A DNA stretch of 63,014 bases from Paramagnetospirillum kuznetsovii. GTDB taxonomy: Bacteria > Pseudomonadota > Alphaproteobacteria > Rhodospirillales > Magnetospirillaceae. The stretch's first letter is position 1, and every line of letters starts with the position of its first letter. The notes under the pieces were generated by a model, which searched no databases, was not told the origin of the DNA, and saw only the letters and a program-made list of their open reading frames with translations. Below are positions 53,863 to 63,014 of the stretch, piece after piece. Location: contig NZ_PGTO01000019.1 of NCBI RefSeq assembly GCF_003284725.1, positions 1 to 63,014 on the forward strand, written 5' to 3'. The position numbers were made by a program, and so were the translations under genes.

Positions 53863-55665
<1,803 letters not shown>

Positions 55666-56244
55666 CTTGGGTCATGAATCCTGAAGTTGCCGGACCATAA
55701 AGCCCCAAGCGGCTTTTGGGAAGAGAGGAGCTTCATGGCCCAGGCGACTCGCAAGACCTTGGGTGGGGCAAAGGCCCGATTGTGCTGCTTTTCGGAAATC
55801 GGACACCGACGGAAGCTACGATCCGATGTTTGAAGATCCCCAATGCAGAAGAGATCAACCGCCGTCAGCCCGACCGAGACGCCCAGGTCAATCCCCATGC
55901 CGCCCATCGCCCGAAATACCGGCTGGCAGGGCTGCCTCGCTGCTCCTGCTGTGGCGGCACCGCCAATCGGTAACGCGTTACCATGCGTGTGGCCGAGGGT
56001 AACGCCGTTGCCATTCGGAGGCAGCCGAGGAAGCACTTTTGGATTCATCGGCGGGGGCGGTGCCTCGCTTGGCCGCGACCTGGACGGCGGCCAATACGGC
56101 CCGCAGGCGTGGACGCGGCCCCAGGGGCGAGCGGTGCCCAAGGGCTTCCCACACGGGCATCGCAAGACCACTTGTCACGAGGGGGAATCTACGCTATTGA
56201 AGATGCGAGCCAGTCGCATAGCAGAAATTCTACTGGGCGTTTCA
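55666..56244. other. Gene-poor region upstream of feoA with palindromes
   Basis: Between divergent lepA and feoA. Overlapping open frames exist on both strands but none shows a recognisable domain. It contains a perfect 14-base palindrome GGTAACGCGTTACC at 55969-55982 and, 29 bases on, a related GGTAACGCCGTTGCC at 55998-56012. These may be operator sites of the feo operon or relics of a rearrangement. Confidence 0.4.
55969..56012. promoter_or_regulatory. Tandem GGTAACG palindromes
   Basis: Perfect palindrome GGTAACGCGTTACC and an imperfect copy GGTAACGCCGTTGCC, starting 29 bases apart. The spacing, close to three helical turns, would suit paired dimer binding. About 470-510 bases upstream of feoA. 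Binding protein unknown; it is not a canonical Fur box. Confidence 0.35.
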
Positions 56245-56433
56245 ATGAAGAAGATTGCCGGTTTATTGAATATGCTGGTCGGAGCCTTTGTCCTTCCCTA
56301 CATCTTTCTTGCTTTGTTACCGGCCGATGTCGACGAAGTCGCTCCTGATGTCGGAAACGGTTTTTGGGGCCGTGGGACGCTGACCGGCGTTGCTTCCCTG
56401 CCCTTTCGGTCGGATCACCGGCACCTACAGTGA
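56245..56433 (+). CDS. Possible 62-residue membrane peptide upstream of feoA
   Basis: Starts MKKIAGLLNMLVGAFVLPYI, which looks like a signal-anchor, then an acidic ADVDEVAPDVG segment. Ends 44 bases before feoA. No convincing ribosome binding site, and the frame continues open far upstream, so it may be chance. Listed because of its position at the head of the feo operon. Confidence 0.25.
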   Translation: MKKIAGLLNMLVGAFVLPYIFLALLPADVDEVAPDVGNGFWGRGTLTGVASLPFRSDHRHLQ

Positions 56434-56477
56434 AAAATATCCAGAGCCGCGATAGCATATTTCATAGGAATCATCCC

Positions 56478-56732
56478 ATGGCACAGCAGATCAGTTCCGA
56501 TATTCTCACCCTTGCCGACCTTGGTCCCGAACAGCAGGGTGAAGTCGTCAAGATTGAGACCGAGGACGGCGTTTTCAAACGCCGCATGCAGTCGCTTGGC
56601 GTCGTGGCCGGCACTCCCGTCACGCTGGATCGTGCGGCGCCGTTGGGTGATCCGCGCATCTACAGCCTGATGGGCTACAGCCTGGGCCTGCGCAACGCCG
56701 AGGCACGGCAGATCCGCATCCGCGTGAAATAA
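56478..56732 (+). CDS. feoA: Ferrous iron transport protein FeoA
   Basis: 84 residues, one SH3-like FeoA domain. Small cytoplasmic partner of FeoB. Typical features are TLADLGPEQQGEVVKIE, the central RRMQSLGVVAGTPV and the C-terminal YSLGLRNAEARQIRIR segment. Start at the MAQQIS methionine (56478), AGGAA upstream. feoB follows after 35 bases; together with the two small genes after feoB this looks like one feo operon. Confidence 0.93.
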   Translation: MAQQISSDILTLADLGPEQQGEVVKIETEDGVFKRRMQSLGVVAGTPVTLDRAAPLGDPRIYSLMGYSLGLRNAEARQIRIRVK

Positions 56733-56767
56733 TCACCCCATCGACCTCGATCCAAGGGAAGCCGCAC

Positions 56768-58879
56768 ATGAAATCCCCCGTCACCGTGGCGCTGGTGGGT
56801 AACCCCAATGCCGGTTCCACCAGTTTGTTCAATGCCCTGACGGGCGCCCAATCCGCCGTCGCCAACTATCAGCGGGTGACGACCTCCCTGAATGTGCGCG
56901 AGATCACCCATGGCGGGGTCAGCCTACGCATCGTCGATGTGCCGGGCATCTTCTCCACCTCGTCGCAATCGCCGGAGGAGAAGGTCGGCTGCGACTACAT
57001 TCACGACGAAGAACCCGACATCATCGTCAATGTACTAGATGCCGGGCATCTGGACCGCAGCCTGTTCCTGACCACCCAGCTGATCGAGACCGGGCTTCCC
57101 CGCATCACCGTACTGAACATGATGGACGAGGTCCGGCGGGCCGGTATTCGCATTGACACCACACTATTGGCGTCGGCCCTTGGGTCACCGGTGGTGGAGA
57201 CCTGCGCCCTGAAGAAGGAAGGCGTCGACGCCCTGCTGGACGCGGTGGCGGCCATGGCCTCGACGACTCCCGCCACGCCCATGCGGCTACACTATGATAG
57301 CCATCTGGAGGCGGCCATCGAGCGCGTCCAGCAGCATCTGTCCACGCTGCACCCCCAGGAGCTGAGCCCGGCACGCTCGCGCTGGCTGGCCATCAAGATG
57401 CTGGAAGGCGATGACGAGATCCTGCGCCACGAAAGCAACCATGCCGACCTGATAGGCGAAATCAAGGGCGAGCAGACCGCCCTGGCCCACGAGCATGATG
57501 AGGACACCGCCAGCCTGTTGGCCTCGGCGAGGTTCGCCTTTTCCAACGGCCTGCTGCGTGAAGCCCGTCAGCAGGAGGGGGATCCCACCGCCGGGTTCAA
57601 GCTGACCCGTATCCTCGACGACTTCTTCCTGAACCGCACCCTGGGCCTGCCGCTGCTGCTGGGTATCCTGTGGGTCATGTTCGAGGCGACCTTCAGCTTG
57701 GGCGCCATTCCCACCGACTGGATCAAGGTCGGGGTGCAACTGGCCACCGATCTGGTGGACAAGAGCCTGCCGGAGGGCATGTTCCATGATCTGGTGGTCA
57801 ACGGTGTGATGGCGGGCGTCGGCGGAACCATCGTTTTCCTGCCCAACATCGTCATTCTGTTCTTCTTCATGGCCATCCTCAGCGGCACCGGCTATCTGGC
57901 GCGCGCCAGCTTCCTGATGGACCGGGTAATGCACCATTTCGGCCTGCACGGCACCACCTTGATCCCCATGGTGGCCGGGTTCGGCTGCAATGTCCCCGCC
58001 GTCATGGCCACCCGCGTCATCACCAATAAGCGGGCGCGTCTGATCGCCATGCTGATCGCCCCGTTCATGAATTGCTCGGCCCGCCTGCCGGTGTTCATCC
58101 TGTTCGCAGGCGCTTTCTTCGCCGATATCGCCGGAACCGTGGTCTTCGCCATGTATATGCTGTCCCTGGTCGCCGCCATGGTGTCGGCGGTGTTGCTGAA
58201 CCGCATCATTCCCGGCAGCGGTGGCGACGCCTTCGTGATGGAACTGCCGCCCTATCGTCTGCCGACCCTGCATTCGGTTCTGCATCATATGTGGGATAGC
58301 GCCCAGGGCTTCGTCGCCAAGGTCACCGGCGTCATCCTGGTGGGCTCCGTCGTGATCTGGTTCCTCCAGGAATTCCCCCGCGACATCGCCTATTCCCAGG
58401 ACTTCGAGACCGTCGTCGCCGAACAGACCGCGCTTCCCGACAGCCCGGAAAAGGAAGCGGCGTTACGGACGCTGAAGAGCGCCCAGGCGCAGGAGAAGCT
58501 GGAAAAGAGCTATCTGGGGCGTTCGGCCATCGCGGTGACGCCGCTGTTCCAGCCGCTGGGCTTTTCCTGGCGGGATTCGGCGGCCATCATGACCGGCTTT
58601 GTCGCCAAGGAAGTGGTGGTGGCGACCTATGCCGTCATCTACGCCCAGGAGAAGGGGTCGGACCAGCTGACCGAGACCTTGAGGGGCGCCATGCCACCCG
58701 CAACGGCCATCGCCTTCATGATCTTCACCTTGCTCTACGCGCCTTGCCTGTCGACCATCGCCATCATCGGCAAGGAGGCGCAGAGTTGGCGTTGGGCCGG
58801 GTTCTCGGTGGTCTATTCCCTGTCCTTTGCCTGGTTGCTGGCCCTGGCCGCCGGCCGGATTGGCGGTACCTTCCTGTAG
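56768..58879 (+). CDS. feoB: Ferrous iron transporter FeoB with altered G1 motif
   Basis: 703 residues. Inner-membrane Fe(II) transporter. N-terminal G domain (1-165), helical spacer (166-270), then the membrane region with two gate motifs, GFGCNVPAVMATR and, further on, FVAKEVVVATYAVIY with YAPCLSTIAIIGKE. The G1 P-loop reads GNPNAGSTS (residues 11-19) where GNPNSGKTT/S is expected, so the phosphate-binding lysine is Ser17. The switch region is also altered (VANYQRVTTS for VGNWAGVTVE; DVPGIFST for DLPGTYSL), while G4 NMMD is kept. GTP binding may be weak or different. Its proximity to magnetosome genes suggests a dedicated copy for magnetite iron. Confidence 0.93.
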   Translation: MKSPVTVALVGNPNAGSTSLFNALTGAQSAVANYQRVTTSLNVREITHGGVSLRIVDVPGIFSTSSQSPEEKVGCDYIHDEEPDIIVNVLDAGHLDRSLFLTTQLIETGLPRITVLNMMDEVRRAGIRIDTTLLASALGSPVVETCALKKEGVDALLDAVAAMASTTPATPMRLHYDSHLEAAIERVQQHLSTLHPQELSPARSRWLAIKMLEGDDEILRHESNHADLIGEIKGEQTALAHEHDEDTASLLASARFAFSNGLLREARQQEGDPTAGFKLTRILDDFFLNRTLGLPLLLGILWVMFEATFSLGAIPTDWIKVGVQLATDLVDKSLPEGMFHDLVVNGVMAGVGGTIVFLPNIVILFFFMAILSGTGYLARASFLMDRVMHHFGLHGTTLIPMVAGFGCNVPAVMATRVITNKRARLIAMLIAPFMNCSARLPVFILFAGAFFADIAGTVVFAMYMLSLVAAMVSAVLLNRIIPGSGGDAFVMELPPYRLPTLHSVLHHMWDSAQGFVAKVTGVILVGSVVIWFLQEFPRDIAYSQDFETVVAEQTALPDSPEKEAALRTLKSAQAQEKLEKSYLGRSAIAVTPLFQPLGFSWRDSAAIMTGFVAKEVVVATYAVIYAQEKGSDQLTETLRGAMPPATAIAFMIFTLLYAPCLSTIAIIGKEAQSWRWAGFSVVYSLSFAWLLALAAGRIGGTFL

Positions 58880-58885
58880 GTCTGA

Positions 58886-59037
58886 TCCCAAGGCCCGACG
58901 AGCGAGACTCATCGGGCCTTGGTCGACCGCAAGGCTGTCGCGCCGATCAAACGGCGAAAGCCAAGGGATTGGGAGAATCCCGCCCGGCGTTTGAGGCGCC
59001 CATTGATCGGTTCCGATCAATGGGCCTTGGTCTGACC
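58886..59037. repeat. Cluster of hairpins after feoB
   Basis: Three inverted repeats: AAGGCCCGACGA/TCATCGGGCCTT (58890-58920), the GGGATTGGGAGAATCCC plus CCCGGCGTTTGA element (about 58960-58995), and a 13-base perfect stem GCCCATTGATCGG/CCGATCAATGGGC (58998-59025). The first and last are each followed by GGCCTTGGTC and GACC. No T-run follows, so termination would be partial at most; they may set different expression of feoB and the following small genes. Confidence 0.55.
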
Positions 59038-59087
59038 TGATGGCGGAGTCTTCCTCCGCCACCTCTTGATGAAAGAAGCGTGCCGCC

Positions 59088-59261
59088 ATGGCTTGGGGTT
59101 CACTCTGGGATATGGGCGCCATTACCGTCGTGGGAGCGGGGGCGGCCTTCGTGGTCATCCGTCATCTGTGGCGGATGTGGCGGCCGTCCGACGGGGCGTC
59201 ATGTGGCGGTGGATGCAGTTGCGGCGCCAAGCGAAACGGCGGCCGCGCCGATTGCGGCTGA
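59088..59261 (+). CDS. FeoB-associated Cys-rich membrane protein
   Basis: 57 residues. One membrane helix (about 10-26; AITVVGAGAAFVVIRHLWR) is followed by a Cys-rich tail CGGGCSCG and a final DCG. This is the layout of the FeoB-associated Cys-rich family (FeoC/FeoD-like) that follows feoB in many bacteria and may help gate or assemble the transporter. ATG at 59088; a GAAAGAAG purine stretch lies about ten bases upstream. Too short for routine gene finding. Part of the feo operon by position and strand. Confidence 0.75.
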   Translation: MAWGSLWDMGAITVVGAGAAFVVIRHLWRMWRPSDGASCGGGCSCGAKRNGGRADCG

Positions 59262-59283
59262 CCCCCGCCATGGGGATGCGGCA

Positions 59284-59433
59284 ATGATCTCTCGCGATCA
59301 ACTGCCCCGGAATGGCGGGCTGAAGATAGGCATTCTGCTGGGGTTGGCCGCCGTAGCCATGGGCATTATCGAAATTGTCGATAACGGCCCCGCCTTGCTG
59401 CGCGGCACCCTCGATTGGTGGCGCCGCATGTGA
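59284..59433 (+). CDS. 49-residue predicted membrane peptide
   Basis: Sequence runs MISRDQLPRNGGLKIGILLG, then a hydrophobic stretch to about residue 32, then DNGPALLRGTLDWWRRM. One membrane helix with a basic, Trp-rich end. GGGGA lies about seven bases before the ATG at 59284. Last gene of the feo operon, 22 bases after the Cys-rich gene. No family recognised; a small accessory subunit of the iron transporter is possible. Confidence 0.5.
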   Translation: MISRDQLPRNGGLKIGILLGLAAVAMGIIEIVDNGPALLRGTLDWWRRM

Positions 59434-59459
59434 CCGGAAACGCCCCACAAAAACGACGA

Positions 59460-59491
59460 CGCCGAGATGACCCCATGGAGTCATCTCGGCG
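59460..59491 (-). terminator. Terminator between feo operon and magnetosome genes
   Basis: An 11-base perfect stem (CGCCGAGATGA / TCATCTCGGCG) with a ten-base loop. On the minus strand a TTTTT run follows within about ten bases, so it should end the MamF-like transcript; on the plus strand it may also stop the feo transcript. Confidence 0.6.
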
Positions 59492-59512
59492 CGGCGGATC
59501 CGTTCAGCAGAG

Positions 59513-59848
59513 TCAGATGCGGTCAGCGATATATCCGACCAGCGGCAGCTTCCAGGCGCGGCGGAACGCCACCGAGGCCAGACCGGCAACCGACAGAACC
59601 AGAACCAGCATGGACGAGAAGCCGAAGAACCACTTTCCGATGCCGGGAATTTCCAGGACGAACATGGACAGGACCGCGATCATCCACAGCACCAGCCCTT
59701 GCTTGGCATGGAACTGAACGTATTCGTCATCCTTGTTGCGCATCAAAGGCACAAAACAAAGAATGCCGAGATAGCTGAGGGCAGCCATCACCAAGGGCTT
59801 GTAACTGGTTCCGGTTTCTTGCGACAACCCGATAGTCTGTGCGGTCAT
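59513..59848 (-). CDS. MamF/MmsF-family magnetosome membrane protein
   Basis: 111 residues, the size of MamF and MmsF. Three hydrophobic segments (about 18-36, 48-70, 78-96). Hallmarks seen are [26 protein letters not shown] and [10 protein letters not shown], which I recognise from MamF/MmsF/MmxF (DUF4870). MmsF controls size and shape of magnetite crystals in the magnetosome membrane. GAAGGAGG sits seven bases before the ATG. Eleven bases separate it from the Mms6/MamD-like gene upstream, so the two form an operon. Which of the three paralogues this is cannot be decided here. Confidence 0.85.
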
Positions 59849-59859
59849 TTCGTCCTCCT

Positions 59860-60486
59860 TCAGACGGCTTCGGCCGCAGCCGGCTCGGCATTGCGGTTCT
59901 TGTAATATTCATAAAGAGCGACGGCTCCAGCCACCCCAACCACGCCCAGCAGCACCGGCCCCCAGGCGCCCAGCCCCAGACCGAGGCCCAGGCCGACACC
60001 CTTGGCCGACAGCATGGCGCTGCTGCTGGTGGCGGCGGCGATGGGGCTGGCGGTGACCGAAGCCCCGGTGGCGGCACCCGCCGCGGCACCGGCGGCACCG
60101 GCTCCACCAGCGGCAACCATGGCCTTGCCCTTGACGCCGGTAGCGGCGACCTTGGTGGCAGCGCCGGCTCCCTTGGCAGCCATGGCCGCCTGATTGGCGC
60201 CACCGGCAGCCGTCTTGGCCCCGGCGGCTTTCATACCCGCGGCCTTGGCGGTCACAGCCTCGCGCTCGACCTCCGCCGCGGCAGCCTTGGCCGCACCGGT
60301 CTTGGCCGCGGCGCCATTGGCGGCACCGGCCTTGGCACCACCGGCCTTCATGCCGACGGCCTGCGCGGCACCCTCGCGTTCGATTTCCGGAGAAGCCGCT
60401 GCAGCCATGGCCGCACCGCCAGCTGCGGGAGCTGCGGCGTTCGCGGCGGTTCCACCAGCCATACCTGTTGCCATCTGTGCTGCCAT
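59860..60486 (-). CDS. Mms6/MamD-like magnetosome protein with Leu-Gly repeat
   Basis: 208 residues. Ala/Gly/Lys-rich low-complexity N-terminal region (1-160) with two tandem copies of an element starting E-x-E-R-E and containing GMKAxGAK (residues 34-70 and 72-110). It is followed by the signature [15 protein letters not shown] (164-177), one membrane helix (to about 192) and a short tail [16 protein letters not shown]. The Leu-Gly repeat and GAWGP are shared with Mms6, MamD (Mms7) and MmsC, proteins tightly bound to magnetite. The tail is much less acidic than the iron-binding end of Mms6, so it fits MamD-like proteins better. GAGGAG precedes the ATG. Confidence 0.85.
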
Positions 60487-60812
60487 AACCTAACTCCTCT
60501 GGGAAAGAGATAAACTCATATATGTTTTGTTGCACAAATTCATCGGCTCGACAATAGTCTTCATGCGGACAACAATACAATGGCAGAACATGTTTTTAAT
60601 AATCACTCTCAAGTCCCCACTTCAACAGCCCTCTCTTCCTGGTGTTTTATCTGAAATATGCCGGAGCGAAGGTCTTTGCTAAAGTTTTAGTGCGTAAAAT
60701 TCAGGATCTCCGGGTCGTTCATGATCAAGGCTCTGGATGTGAACTGATTTCGTCGGCAGAGATACCCGCCAGCGTAAACCGTATTGCCGCTCAACCACAG
60801 GAGACGTGATCC
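60487..60812. other. AT-rich divergent promoter region
   Basis: About 325 bases between the magnetosome operon and the vWA gene, clearly AT-richer than the flanks (for example near 60510-60600 and 60650-60710). No gene seen. It should contain divergent promoters; boxes such as ACATATATG near the magnetosome gene are suggestive but not decisive. Confidence 0.45.
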
Positions 60813-61733
60813 GTGGCCTATTCACAGGAAATCAGCCGTGACCAACGCGGTGCCTTCATCTTTCTGGTCGATCAATCCAAATCCATGAACACCACCTTCG
60901 GTGTCGATGATAACGGACAGACGATCAGCCGGGCCCAGGTGGTGGCGGATGCGCTCAACCGAACTCTTGACGAGTTGATCAACCGCTGTATGCGCGATGA
61001 AGGCGTCCGTGACTATTTCGACATCGGCGTCATCGGCTATGGGCGCACCAACCGCGCCGAGTTCTGCTGGCTGGGAAACCTTGCCGGGCGCAGCTTGGTG
61101 CCCATCTCCGAGGTGGCGGAAAACGCCGATACCATCGAGGAAGAGACCACCATCATGGTTCGCGGCCAGCCGGTGGTCGAACGGGTCGCTGTTTCCCGTT
61201 GGGTGGCGCCGGTGGCGGTGGAAAGCACCCCGATGAACGGAGCTCTGCGCTTGGCGCAGTCCATCCTGGAGCCCTGGATTTCGGCGAACCCCGGCTCATT
61301 CCCCCCGGCCGTCATCAACATTACCGACGGCATGGCCAACGACGTGGACAGCGATGAAGAGCTTTTGGCGACCGCCCGGCGGTTGACCGGGCTGAAGACC
61401 AAGGACGGCCACGTCCTGCTGATGAACTGCCATATTTCAGGCGGCGACGACGCGCCGGTGGTGTTTCCATCCAGCGCGGGCCAATTGCCAGACGACACCT
61501 ATGCACGCCTGCTGTTCGAGATGTCGAGTGAGTTGTCGGGCCGCCATCGCGCCATCATCTGCGAATTGTTCGAGCGCGACCTGAAGACCACGCCGACCCT
61601 GCGCGGCATGGCCTTCAATGCCGATGCCGTCGCGTTGGTCAAACTGCTCGATATCGGCACCCGCCCGGCCATCGTTTTCAACCAAGCCGCCGAGGATTCA
61701 TCACGTGACCGGACCACGGAGTTCGAACAGTGA
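60813..61733 (+). CDS. von Willebrand factor A domain protein (TerY-like)
   Basis: 306 residues from a GTG at 60813 (GGAG nine to twelve bases upstream). The vWA domain spans about 12-225 with a complete MIDAS: DQSKSM near 20-25, the Thr of ESTPMNGAL near 140, and D in NITDGMAND near 170. No signal peptide, so cytoplasmic. Resembles TerY-type proteins that pair with kinases and PP2C phosphatases. The stop overlaps the kinase start (GTGA), implying a fixed ratio and a complex. Divergent from the magnetosome operon. Confidence 0.85.
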   Translation: MAYSQEISRDQRGAFIFLVDQSKSMNTTFGVDDNGQTISRAQVVADALNRTLDELINRCMRDEGVRDYFDIGVIGYGRTNRAEFCWLGNLAGRSLVPISEVAENADTIEEETTIMVRGQPVVERVAVSRWVAPVAVESTPMNGALRLAQSILEPWISANPGSFPPAVINITDGMANDVDSDEELLATARRLTGLKTKDGHVLLMNCHISGGDDAPVVFPSSAGQLPDDTYARLLFEMSSELSGRHRAIICELFERDLKTTPTLRGMAFNADAVALVKLLDIGTRPAIVFNQAAEDSSRDRTTEFEQ

Positions 61734-62893
61734 CGTTTCCCGTATTGGCGGACTACAAGGCGGCGCTTTCCAACGCCAAGGCCCGGTTCGCCACTCTCCA
61801 GGTGACACCGTTCAAGGATTCCCGAGGCCATCCGCAGTTTCTCGCCGGAAACTTCGCCGGGGTGTTCCGTGTCACCGAATCCATGGGATCGCTCTTGGCG
61901 ATCAAGTGCTTCATCCGTGATCTTCCCGATCTTGAGCGCCGCTACAAGGCAATCTCCGGCTTCGTCGCGGCCAGCGGCTCGCCCTATATGGTCCCTCTCC
62001 GGTTTCACCGCGACGAACTCTACGTGACATCGTCCATCGCCAAGCACGGTGAATATCCGGTCATCAGCATGCCGTGGATCGCAGGCCGCACCATCGGCGC
62101 CGTGGTCCAGACCCTGTGCGAAAGCGACAAGCGCGGCGGCATCGCCGGCCTGAGCCGGGCCTGGGCACGGCTTTGCCTGGATCTGCTGAACCGTGGCGTG
62201 GCCCATGGCGACCTTAAACACGACAACATCCTGATCGGACCTGATGGTCGCCTGAAGCTGATCGATTACGATTCCATGTTTTTGCCCGAACTGAGCGGGT
62301 TGCCCTGCACCTTGCTCGGCAGCATCAATTTCCAGCACCCCGAGCGCGATGAGACGCATTTCGACGCGACGCTGGATCACTTCTCCATGCTGGTGATGCA
62401 ACTGTCGTTGCGGGCCTTGGTGTTCGATCCCGGCCTGTTCAAGCACTGCCACAGCGGCGAGAACCTCATCTTCACCCGCTCGGATTTCCTCAATCCGCAA
62501 GGCTCGGAACTGTTCCGGCGGCTTTCAGCCTCCGATGACCTCTACGTTCGCGATTGGGCGGCACGGCTGGCGCTGGCCTGTGGATCGAATTCCATCCGCA
62601 TACCGTCGATCAAGGCGATCCTGTCCGTGGCCTCGGGACTGGACATGAGCCCGGTAACCGGAGGTCTGAGGTGGCTTCTCTACCGGGTGTCCAGTGGAGC
62701 GCCAAATATCACTCCCAATGCCCGGCCGAAGCCTGCCGTTCCCAGTCATTCCGAGCGGACCAAGCCCGTGGCGGCCAGTCAGAACGACGATCCGATCAAT
62801 CGCCTGAGAAAGCTGAAGGGCGCCCTCGACGAGGGCCTGATCAGCCAGGCCGATTACGACGGGCAGAAGGCCAAGATCATGGAAAATTTCTGA
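61730..62893 (+). CDS. Protein-kinase-like protein with C-terminal SHOCT domain
   Basis: 387 residues from GTG at 61730. Kinase core about 25-330: K59 in LLAIKCF, catalytic loop HGDLKHDN (H159, D161, N166), and DYD (D179) in place of DFG. No clear Gly-rich loop, so activity may be altered. A Pro/Ser-rich linker (330-352) leads to a SHOCT domain (353-387; INRLRKLKGALDEGLISQADY, seen as KLKGALDEGLISQADYD), a short helical module for oligomerisation or interaction. Together with the upstream vWA protein this resembles a TerY-P type signalling module; a PP2C partner is not in the window but could lie beyond its end. Confidence 0.85.
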   Translation: MTFPVLADYKAALSNAKARFATLQVTPFKDSRGHPQFLAGNFAGVFRVTESMGSLLAIKCFIRDLPDLERRYKAISGFVAASGSPYMVPLRFHRDELYVTSSIAKHGEYPVISMPWIAGRTIGAVVQTLCESDKRGGIAGLSRAWARLCLDLLNRGVAHGDLKHDNILIGPDGRLKLIDYDSMFLPELSGLPCTLLGSINFQHPERDETHFDATLDHFSMLVMQLSLRALVFDPGLFKHCHSGENLIFTRSDFLNPQGSELFRRLSASDDLYVRDWAARLALACGSNSIRIPSIKAILSVASGLDMSPVTGGLRWLLYRVSSGAPNITPNARPKPAVPSHSERTKPVAASQNDDPINRLRKLKGALDEGLISQADYDGQKAKIMENF

Positions 62894-63014
62894 GTCCTGA
62901 CCTGCCGTGGAACTTTCATCCAGCCATGGGTAGAGTCCCGACTAAAGTTACGCCGTCTGGCGCGGGTTGAGCAATGGGGCCGGGCTCGGAGCCCCGGAGG
63001 GGCTTCGATTTCGG
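62894..63014. other. Window end, no gene seen
   Basis: Short non-coding end with a GC-rich inverted repeat around GGGCTCGGAGCCC (62983-62995). No supported reading frame. Confidence 0.3.

Follow-up and report, generated by a model that had tools for sequence, protein, structure and literature searches.

The closest described counterparts of the locus reported here are magnetosome operons of strain MSR-1. Passages of PMC9549626 and PMC7908775 list feoAB1op and mms5op among them; according to the former source the two are separate operons, mms5op being formed by mms5 and mmxF. A second point of comparison is the magnetosome islet (MIS) of strain AMB-1, for which part of PMC9512821 gives mamK, D, L, J, E, I, F and Q-like genes together with mcaA and mcaB. 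Here we describe a block of eight genes at positions 56478-62893 of a DNA stretch from Paramagnetospirillum kuznetsovii; this stretch, the window, comprises all of contig C10 (63014 bp), one of the 69 contigs into which the 4.41-Mb genome is assembled (other contigs of this genome carry C numbers and other genomes G numbers). The block includes feoA and feoB, a MamF-like gene with its neighbour, and a von Willebrand factor A (vWA)/kinase pair. The gene block itself is already known, being a conserved piece of the magnetosome island; of greater importance is that its FeoB has lost the P-loop lysine.

FeoB is usually regarded as an importer gated by GTP, and there is debate over what its G-domain does; GxxxxGK[ST] is the canonical P-loop (G1) motif of GTPases. 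The FeoB_N, Gate and FeoB_C domains were all found in the window FeoB, and among the structures compared with an AlphaFold2 model of its N-domain (mean pLDDT 86) the best matches were NFeoB structures. Solved FeoB structures read GNPNSGKTS in the P-loop and the window FeoB reads GNPNAGSTS, so that the G1 motif fails (GNPNAGST), while DxPG, NMxD and the switch-I threonine are retained. Lysine was replaced by serine, alanine or valine in 20 of the 52 FeoBs placed in a tree (18 genomes) and kept in the other 32; the 20 are set off from the rest by a single branch (support 100/100), the lysine column itself having been kept in the tree input. The same division was found by identity to the window protein. 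In the FeoB1 clade (22 matches at about 72% identity or more, of which 21 were read and a second copy in G017 was left out) the lysine is absent from 21/21 sequences, including the FeoB1 of MSR-1 (G159). It is present in 18/18 N-termini read from a class of 50-60% identity and in 15/15 sequences read from the canonical class (33-41% identity).

If this were neutral decay of a dying gene copy, three different replacements and a long branch leading to the lysine-less clade (length 0.58) could be expected, and both are seen. However, the lysine-less sequences lie on one side of one branch, their reading frames are open and free of stops, and their G-domain is under purifying selection, with dN/dS of 0.06-0.24 across five comparisons, close to the values for the membrane part (0.07-0.19). 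Tn5 insertions in feoA1 and feoB1 of MSR-1 moreover give weakly magnetic cells, as stated in a portion of PMC7676999. We therefore regard decay as unlikely. A lysine or arginine compensating for the lost residue was also sought; switch-I Arg36 is invariant, but because the lysine-bearing sister FeoBs have it too it is not a clade-specific compensation, and this candidate was rejected.

The FeoBs that lie amid magnetosome-type genes in G038 (LM-1), G113 and G283 retain the lysine, which suggests that it was lost after FeoB had joined the magnetosome cluster. Genome G070 has one lysine-less and one lysine-bearing FeoB with no magnetosome gene on the stretches read, so that the trait may not be confined to magnetotactic bacteria. 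The P. kuznetsovii genome gave no more than two FeoB_N matches scoring over 100 bits, and each lacks the lysine; if the strain uses Feo at all, ordinary Feo uptake would also have to run through FeoBs of this kind. From what is known of the family, FeoA1 and FeoB1 would import Fe(II) together with the two small membrane peptides encoded behind them, and, since the clade to which the window FeoB1 belongs has lost the lysine, its GTP step is probably altered. We tentatively propose, as an idea with somewhat less than an even chance of being right, that the Magnetospirillum group has as its magnetosome FeoB1 a "pseudo-GTPase" without the lysine. One loss in an ancestor, fixed throughout the clade, would have released Fe(II) flow from the usual GTP control, or altered which nucleotide does the gating, and so given magnetite formation a high-capacity iron feed. 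A limited literature search found no remark on the P-loop of magnetotactic FeoB. The FeoB1 clade, with an MSR-1 member that affects magnetosome formation, amounts to a natural experiment on whether Fe(II) transport by FeoB needs normal GTP binding.

The features of the block and its borders are as follows.

53863..55665, minus strand: lepA, chromosomal neighbour (LepA_C, 169 bits); in G012 and G008 it directly adjoins a segment here called X (C33:6615 on)
55704..55705, no strand: breakpoint; last base in common with the lepA region of G012 (55704) and G008 (55705) by blastn
56171..56386, plus strand: remnant of a 154-residue open reading frame (ORF), 80% identical to G009 1083151-1083364
56478..56732, plus strand: feoA1 (PF04023, 64.6 bits)
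56768..58879, plus strand: feoB1 (TIGR00437, 567.9 bits), 95% identical to the FeoB of G159 (MSR-1)
56798..56824, plus strand: P-loop of feoB1, GNPNAGSTS; residue 17 (56816-56818) is Ser, Lys in other FeoBs
58886..59037, no strand: hairpin repeat resembling repetitive extragenic palindromic (REP) elements, in the gap from feoB1 to the Cys-rich peptide gene, spotted by eye
59088..59261, plus strand: Cys-rich peptide of the FeoB-associated type (PF12669, 19.2 bits, under the cut-off of 27), 82-98% identical to peptides beside the feoB1 of relatives
59284..59433, plus strand: 49-residue hydrophobic peptide, 59-98% identical to peptides beside feoB1 in relatives
59513..59848, minus strand: mmxF, MamF-like and Tic20-related, 96-100% identical to the G159 copy
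59860..60486, minus strand: mms5, Ala-rich with a Gly-rich C-terminal membrane segment, called from sequence features and operon position
60813..61733, plus strand: vWA-domain protein with the motifs of a metal ion-dependent adhesion site (MIDAS) kept; VWA_2 match under cut-off
61730..62893, plus strand: Ser/Thr-type protein kinase with a C-terminal SHOCT-like segment (Pkinase 29.8 bits, SHOCT 23.1), catalytic motifs present
62898..63014, no strand: left end of an insertion sequence (IS), inside which the contig stops; the last 120 bp of C10 match the end of C38 exactly

All eight genes are open, and the layout given by the initial annotation was confirmed: feoA, feoB, the 57-residue Cys-rich peptide and the 49-residue peptide on the plus strand converge on the genes for the 111-residue and 208-residue proteins on the minus strand, which diverge from the vWA and kinase genes. 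Its reading of lepA, argJ, gap and pgk as a housekeeping flank was equally correct, LepA, ArgJ, PGK, GAPDH and a PPIase all being recognized by Pfam. PF12669 is the family of FeoB-associated Cys-rich membrane proteins, to which the match is sub-threshold; the Pfam search gave no meaningful match for the 49-residue peptide. Hairpin-rich REP-like elements (CCAAGG...CCTTGG) recur in the island intergenic DNA of this genome, at 58886-59037 and at the starts of C33 and C17. The eight genes are colinear and in the same orientation in six other genomes (G001, G009, G010, G011, G016 and G159), which is more than chance would give, with proteins 87-100% identical to those of the window.

Genome G159 was identified as MSR-1 by an exact match, just upstream of feoA (about 2448.0 kb), to the 25-bp Fur operator of feoAB1 published for that strain (passage in PMC4506495). 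The feoA-feoB pair, judged by orthology to MSR-1 feoAB1 and by the adjoining mms5op, belongs to feoAB1op. The 111-residue protein matches DUF4870 weakly (17.2 bits against a cut-off of 25) and has two paralogues of 64-71% identity on C22 and C35, as well as copies of 96-100% identity in Magnetospirillum-type genomes. It adjoins an Ala-rich protein with a Gly-rich C-terminal membrane segment, as expected of an mms5 operon. Because G159 is MSR-1 and the eight genes are colinear, the MamF-like protein is assigned as MmxF and the Ala/Gly-rich protein as Mms5, an assignment made by position and similarity to the G159 genome and not by comparison with named MSR-1 records. From its length, Ala-rich N-terminus and operon the 208-residue protein is of the Mms5 type. 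It scored 109.9 with the NCBIfam model for MamG (cut-off 100) and below the cut-offs for MamD and Mms6; MamG was rejected, since the protein is twice the length of the MamG model, lies beside mmxF and holds the position of mms5 in MSR-1. Automatic annotation would thus misname this Mms5-type protein as MamG. Excerpts of PMC11628618 report magnetosome-membrane localisation and targeting function for the MmxF system of MSR-1; by orthology the MmxF of the window, a Tic20-like membrane protein, would likewise assist in bringing Mms5 and further Gly-rich proteins into the magnetosome membrane. In G005 (C19) the block seems to break off within mmxF (77/111 residues), with no downstream mms5 or vWA match on that stretch.

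The block is very probably the feoAB1op - mms5op - vWA/kinase segment of the magnetosome island, forming one edge of an island that is split over two chromosomal loci. That these are magnetosome genes, as the initial annotation had held, is borne out by the colinearity with island segments in the six genomes and by the distribution of the MamF-like match, which was found in 20/60 genomes (this one included) and in 11/17 of the genus, the remaining 6/17 having none. As far as tested, the same genes were not found at the same place in non-magnetotactic relatives: six of the 17 lack MamF, and in one of these, G012, lepA adjoins X. In the complete genomes G009, G011 and G016 two further mamF-family genes are found at a distance of 69-77 kb from the MamF-like gene of the block, and in MSR-1 feoA is about 8 kb from mamXY. 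In P. kuznetsovii the other island genes are on separate contigs: mamH, E, J, K, N and a mamF-family gene on C35, a second mamE-like gene with mamV on C31, mamY, X and Z at the start of C33, and another mamF-family gene at the end of C22.

The initial annotation had placed the block in a separate islet outside the main mamAB region. A separately acquired islet like the AMB-1 MIS, unconnected with mamAB, would explain the chromosomal lepA, argJ, pgk and gap on the visible side, and lepA is 0.9 Mb or more from the island in three complete relatives. An islet should have chromosomal DNA on both flanks and no link to mamAB. The other flank is an IS beginning at 62898, four bases past the kinase stop codon; an IS of one kind has its left end on C10 and its right end on C37 (1-77), and GTCC borders both ends on the outside as a matching 4-bp duplication. 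Past the IS, C37 continues with DNA homologous to the sequence that follows the kinase in AMB-1-like genomes, including the next conserved gene. C31 shares its first 77 bases with C35 and its last 77 with C37, and the AMB-1-like genome G009 has a two-part repeat, 99-100% identical, at exactly the C31/C35 and C31/C37 positions. The block thus continues through the IS to C37 and, by contig ends and gene order, to mamAB, the repeats between being unread. Its proteins are 87-100% identical across the six colinear genomes, whereas a second MamF-like gene, set apart at 445.7 kb in the AMB-1-like genome (G009), reaches only 81%. On the IS, repeat-end and synteny evidence we rejected the islet reading, which appears highly unlikely.

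Several points weigh against the continuity that we favor. The IS end that closes C10 is found at the end of C38 as well, where the flank lacks GTCC. The bridging repeat is on no readable contig (contigs under 3 kb, 15/20 of them in one set plus five more, read as N), so that the path C35-C31-C37 was deduced rather than read. C22 is joined to C35 by gene order alone, and C33 to C17 by AMB-1-like gene order and 10 bp of overlap that fall within a hairpin element. The stretch that follows mamN (G009 1030.8-1036.0 kb, with MamQ) was not seen on the readable contigs of this genome, likely because it is in the small contigs that read as N.

The placement next to lepA is accounted for by a division of the island. 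In G012, which has no MamF match, and G008, which has magnetosome genes on other contigs, lepA is about 10 bp from segment X, and the matches to this junction end at 55704/55705 of the window and resume at C33:6615. In P. kuznetsovii the junction is broken, with feoAB1 on the lepA side (C10) and mamXY about 0.7 kb from X (C33); the intervening stretch of about 0.7 kb on C33 includes a piece that matches the left flank of the island in G009. C17 and C22 also run into DNA that is present in relatives without MamF. From the broken junction and these chromosomal flanks it follows that island genes are at two or more loci, and it is this split that leaves ordinary chromosome beside the block in the window. 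A simple insertion of the whole island between lepA and X was considered and found insufficient, as C22 and C17 give two further chromosomal flanks. The ORF remnant at 56171-56386 corresponds to the 154-residue ORF that in G009 separates a vWA-phosphatase-kinase triad from feoA, and it is colinear into feoA; the break therefore fell between the triad and feoA. Island DNA is repeat-rich and the assembly is in 69 contigs, circumstances in which the lepA/feoA junction could be an assembly chimera. That would have to be reconciled with the reciprocal break on an independent contig, C33, where X is about 0.7 kb from mamXY, and with the remnant running colinearly into feoA as in the AMB-1-like genome, and we consider it extremely unlikely. 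A split island thus remains our reading of the block, whose value in this respect is corrective, since island pieces at the ends of draft contigs can pass for islets. A better candidate for an islet is C21 (517-18528), with a phage-type integrase, copies of mamZ, mamX and mamH, a protoglobin chemoreceptor, and a second feoA-feoB set with both small peptides (FeoB 91% identical).

DxSxS/T/D are motifs of vWA domains, and VAIK, HGDLKxDN and DYD are motifs of kinases. All are conserved in the two proteins of the pair, and the calls lean on them because the family scores fall under the cut-offs (VWA_2 15.3 bits against 27, Pkinase 29.8 against 31.7, SHOCT 23.1 against 27). The initial annotation had grouped the vWA gene with magnetosome genes, which is supported across the order by both occurrence and neighbourhood. 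At 60% identity or more the vWA protein was found in 30/297 genomes of the order (this one included). Presuming that the 60-genome set lies within the 297 surveyed, it is present in 17/20 MamF-positive genomes (missing in G019, G053 and G059) and 0/40 MamF-negative ones, although a match of 35% identity occurs in three of the latter (G004, G006 and G015). In 15/15 genomes whose neighbourhood was read, the vWA gene has mamX, Y, Z, H, mamF-type or mms5-type genes close by, the magnetosome-type matches in G113 and G108 being weak at 28-38% identity. In BB-1 (G124), C136 carries the vWA/kinase pair only, and C166 a partial vWA match (120/306 residues) beside mms5op.

The full vWA - PP2C-like - kinase triad is at the start of C17, and the window copy has no phosphatase gene. 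The operon is apparently the published mag123, a name given only in passages and applied here from the place beside mamXY; the window pair would be its phosphatase-less relative, and a protein-phosphorylation switch acting in the magnetosome pathway may be supposed. The vWA, kinase and phosphatase motifs are conserved among aligned copies, but there is little backing from Pfam: PP2C_2 scores are 12.9 bits in C17, 13.6 in G009 and 26.4 in G083 (cut-off 24, passed only in G083), which makes the phosphatase call weak; no matching PDB sequence was found for the PP2C-like protein, nor a Pfam match for the C17 vWA paralogue. Deletion work in MSR-1 (PMC7908775) found the genes between five key operons dispensable: strains that had lost intervening DNA still formed normal magnetosomes or came to form them again. 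This speaks against the kinase modules being essential under laboratory conditions. The vWA/kinase genes suggest a layer of phosphorylation in organelle formation that has received little study.

A coupling of iron supply, crystal proteins and signalling, as the initial annotation had suggested, is not shown: feoAB1op and mms5op are separate in MSR-1 and their expression is mixed. Under anoxia mms5 and mmxF of MSR-1 go up, feoB1 goes down and feoA1 is unchanged, and a discussion passage of the same paper (PMC9549626) names mms6op, feoAB1op and mms5op together among the operons whose expression is raised in magnetic cells; these data are weak evidence on coupling either way. The MSR-1 operator occurs with one mismatch in PR1 (G001). 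It was not found near feoA at the AMB-1-like locus, and a scan of window positions 55601-56500 for this type of Fur site gave a best match with 11 mismatches upstream of feoA, other Fur-site types not being scanned. As read from these sites, iron control of feoAB1 may differ between strains.

Compared with the AMB-1 MIS, the window is alike in that its visible sequence shows magnetosome genes apart from mamAB; it differs in gene content and in being tied to the island core by contig ends. Toward the mag123 operon beside mamXY, the window vWA and kinase are paralogous to genes one and three (68% and about 55% identity, AMB-1-like genomes), with the difference that the PP2C-like gene is lacking. 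The feoAB1 operon of MSR-1 has its orthologous feoA1-feoB1 here, at 95% FeoB identity and with the same neighbours, whereas the operator is absent and an AMB-1-type ORF remnant makes up the upstream region. Finally, the mms5 operon (mms5-mmxF) of MSR-1 is matched by the same gene pair in the same orientation and with the same domain make-up, the window Mms5 differing in length through small Ala/Gly-rich indels.

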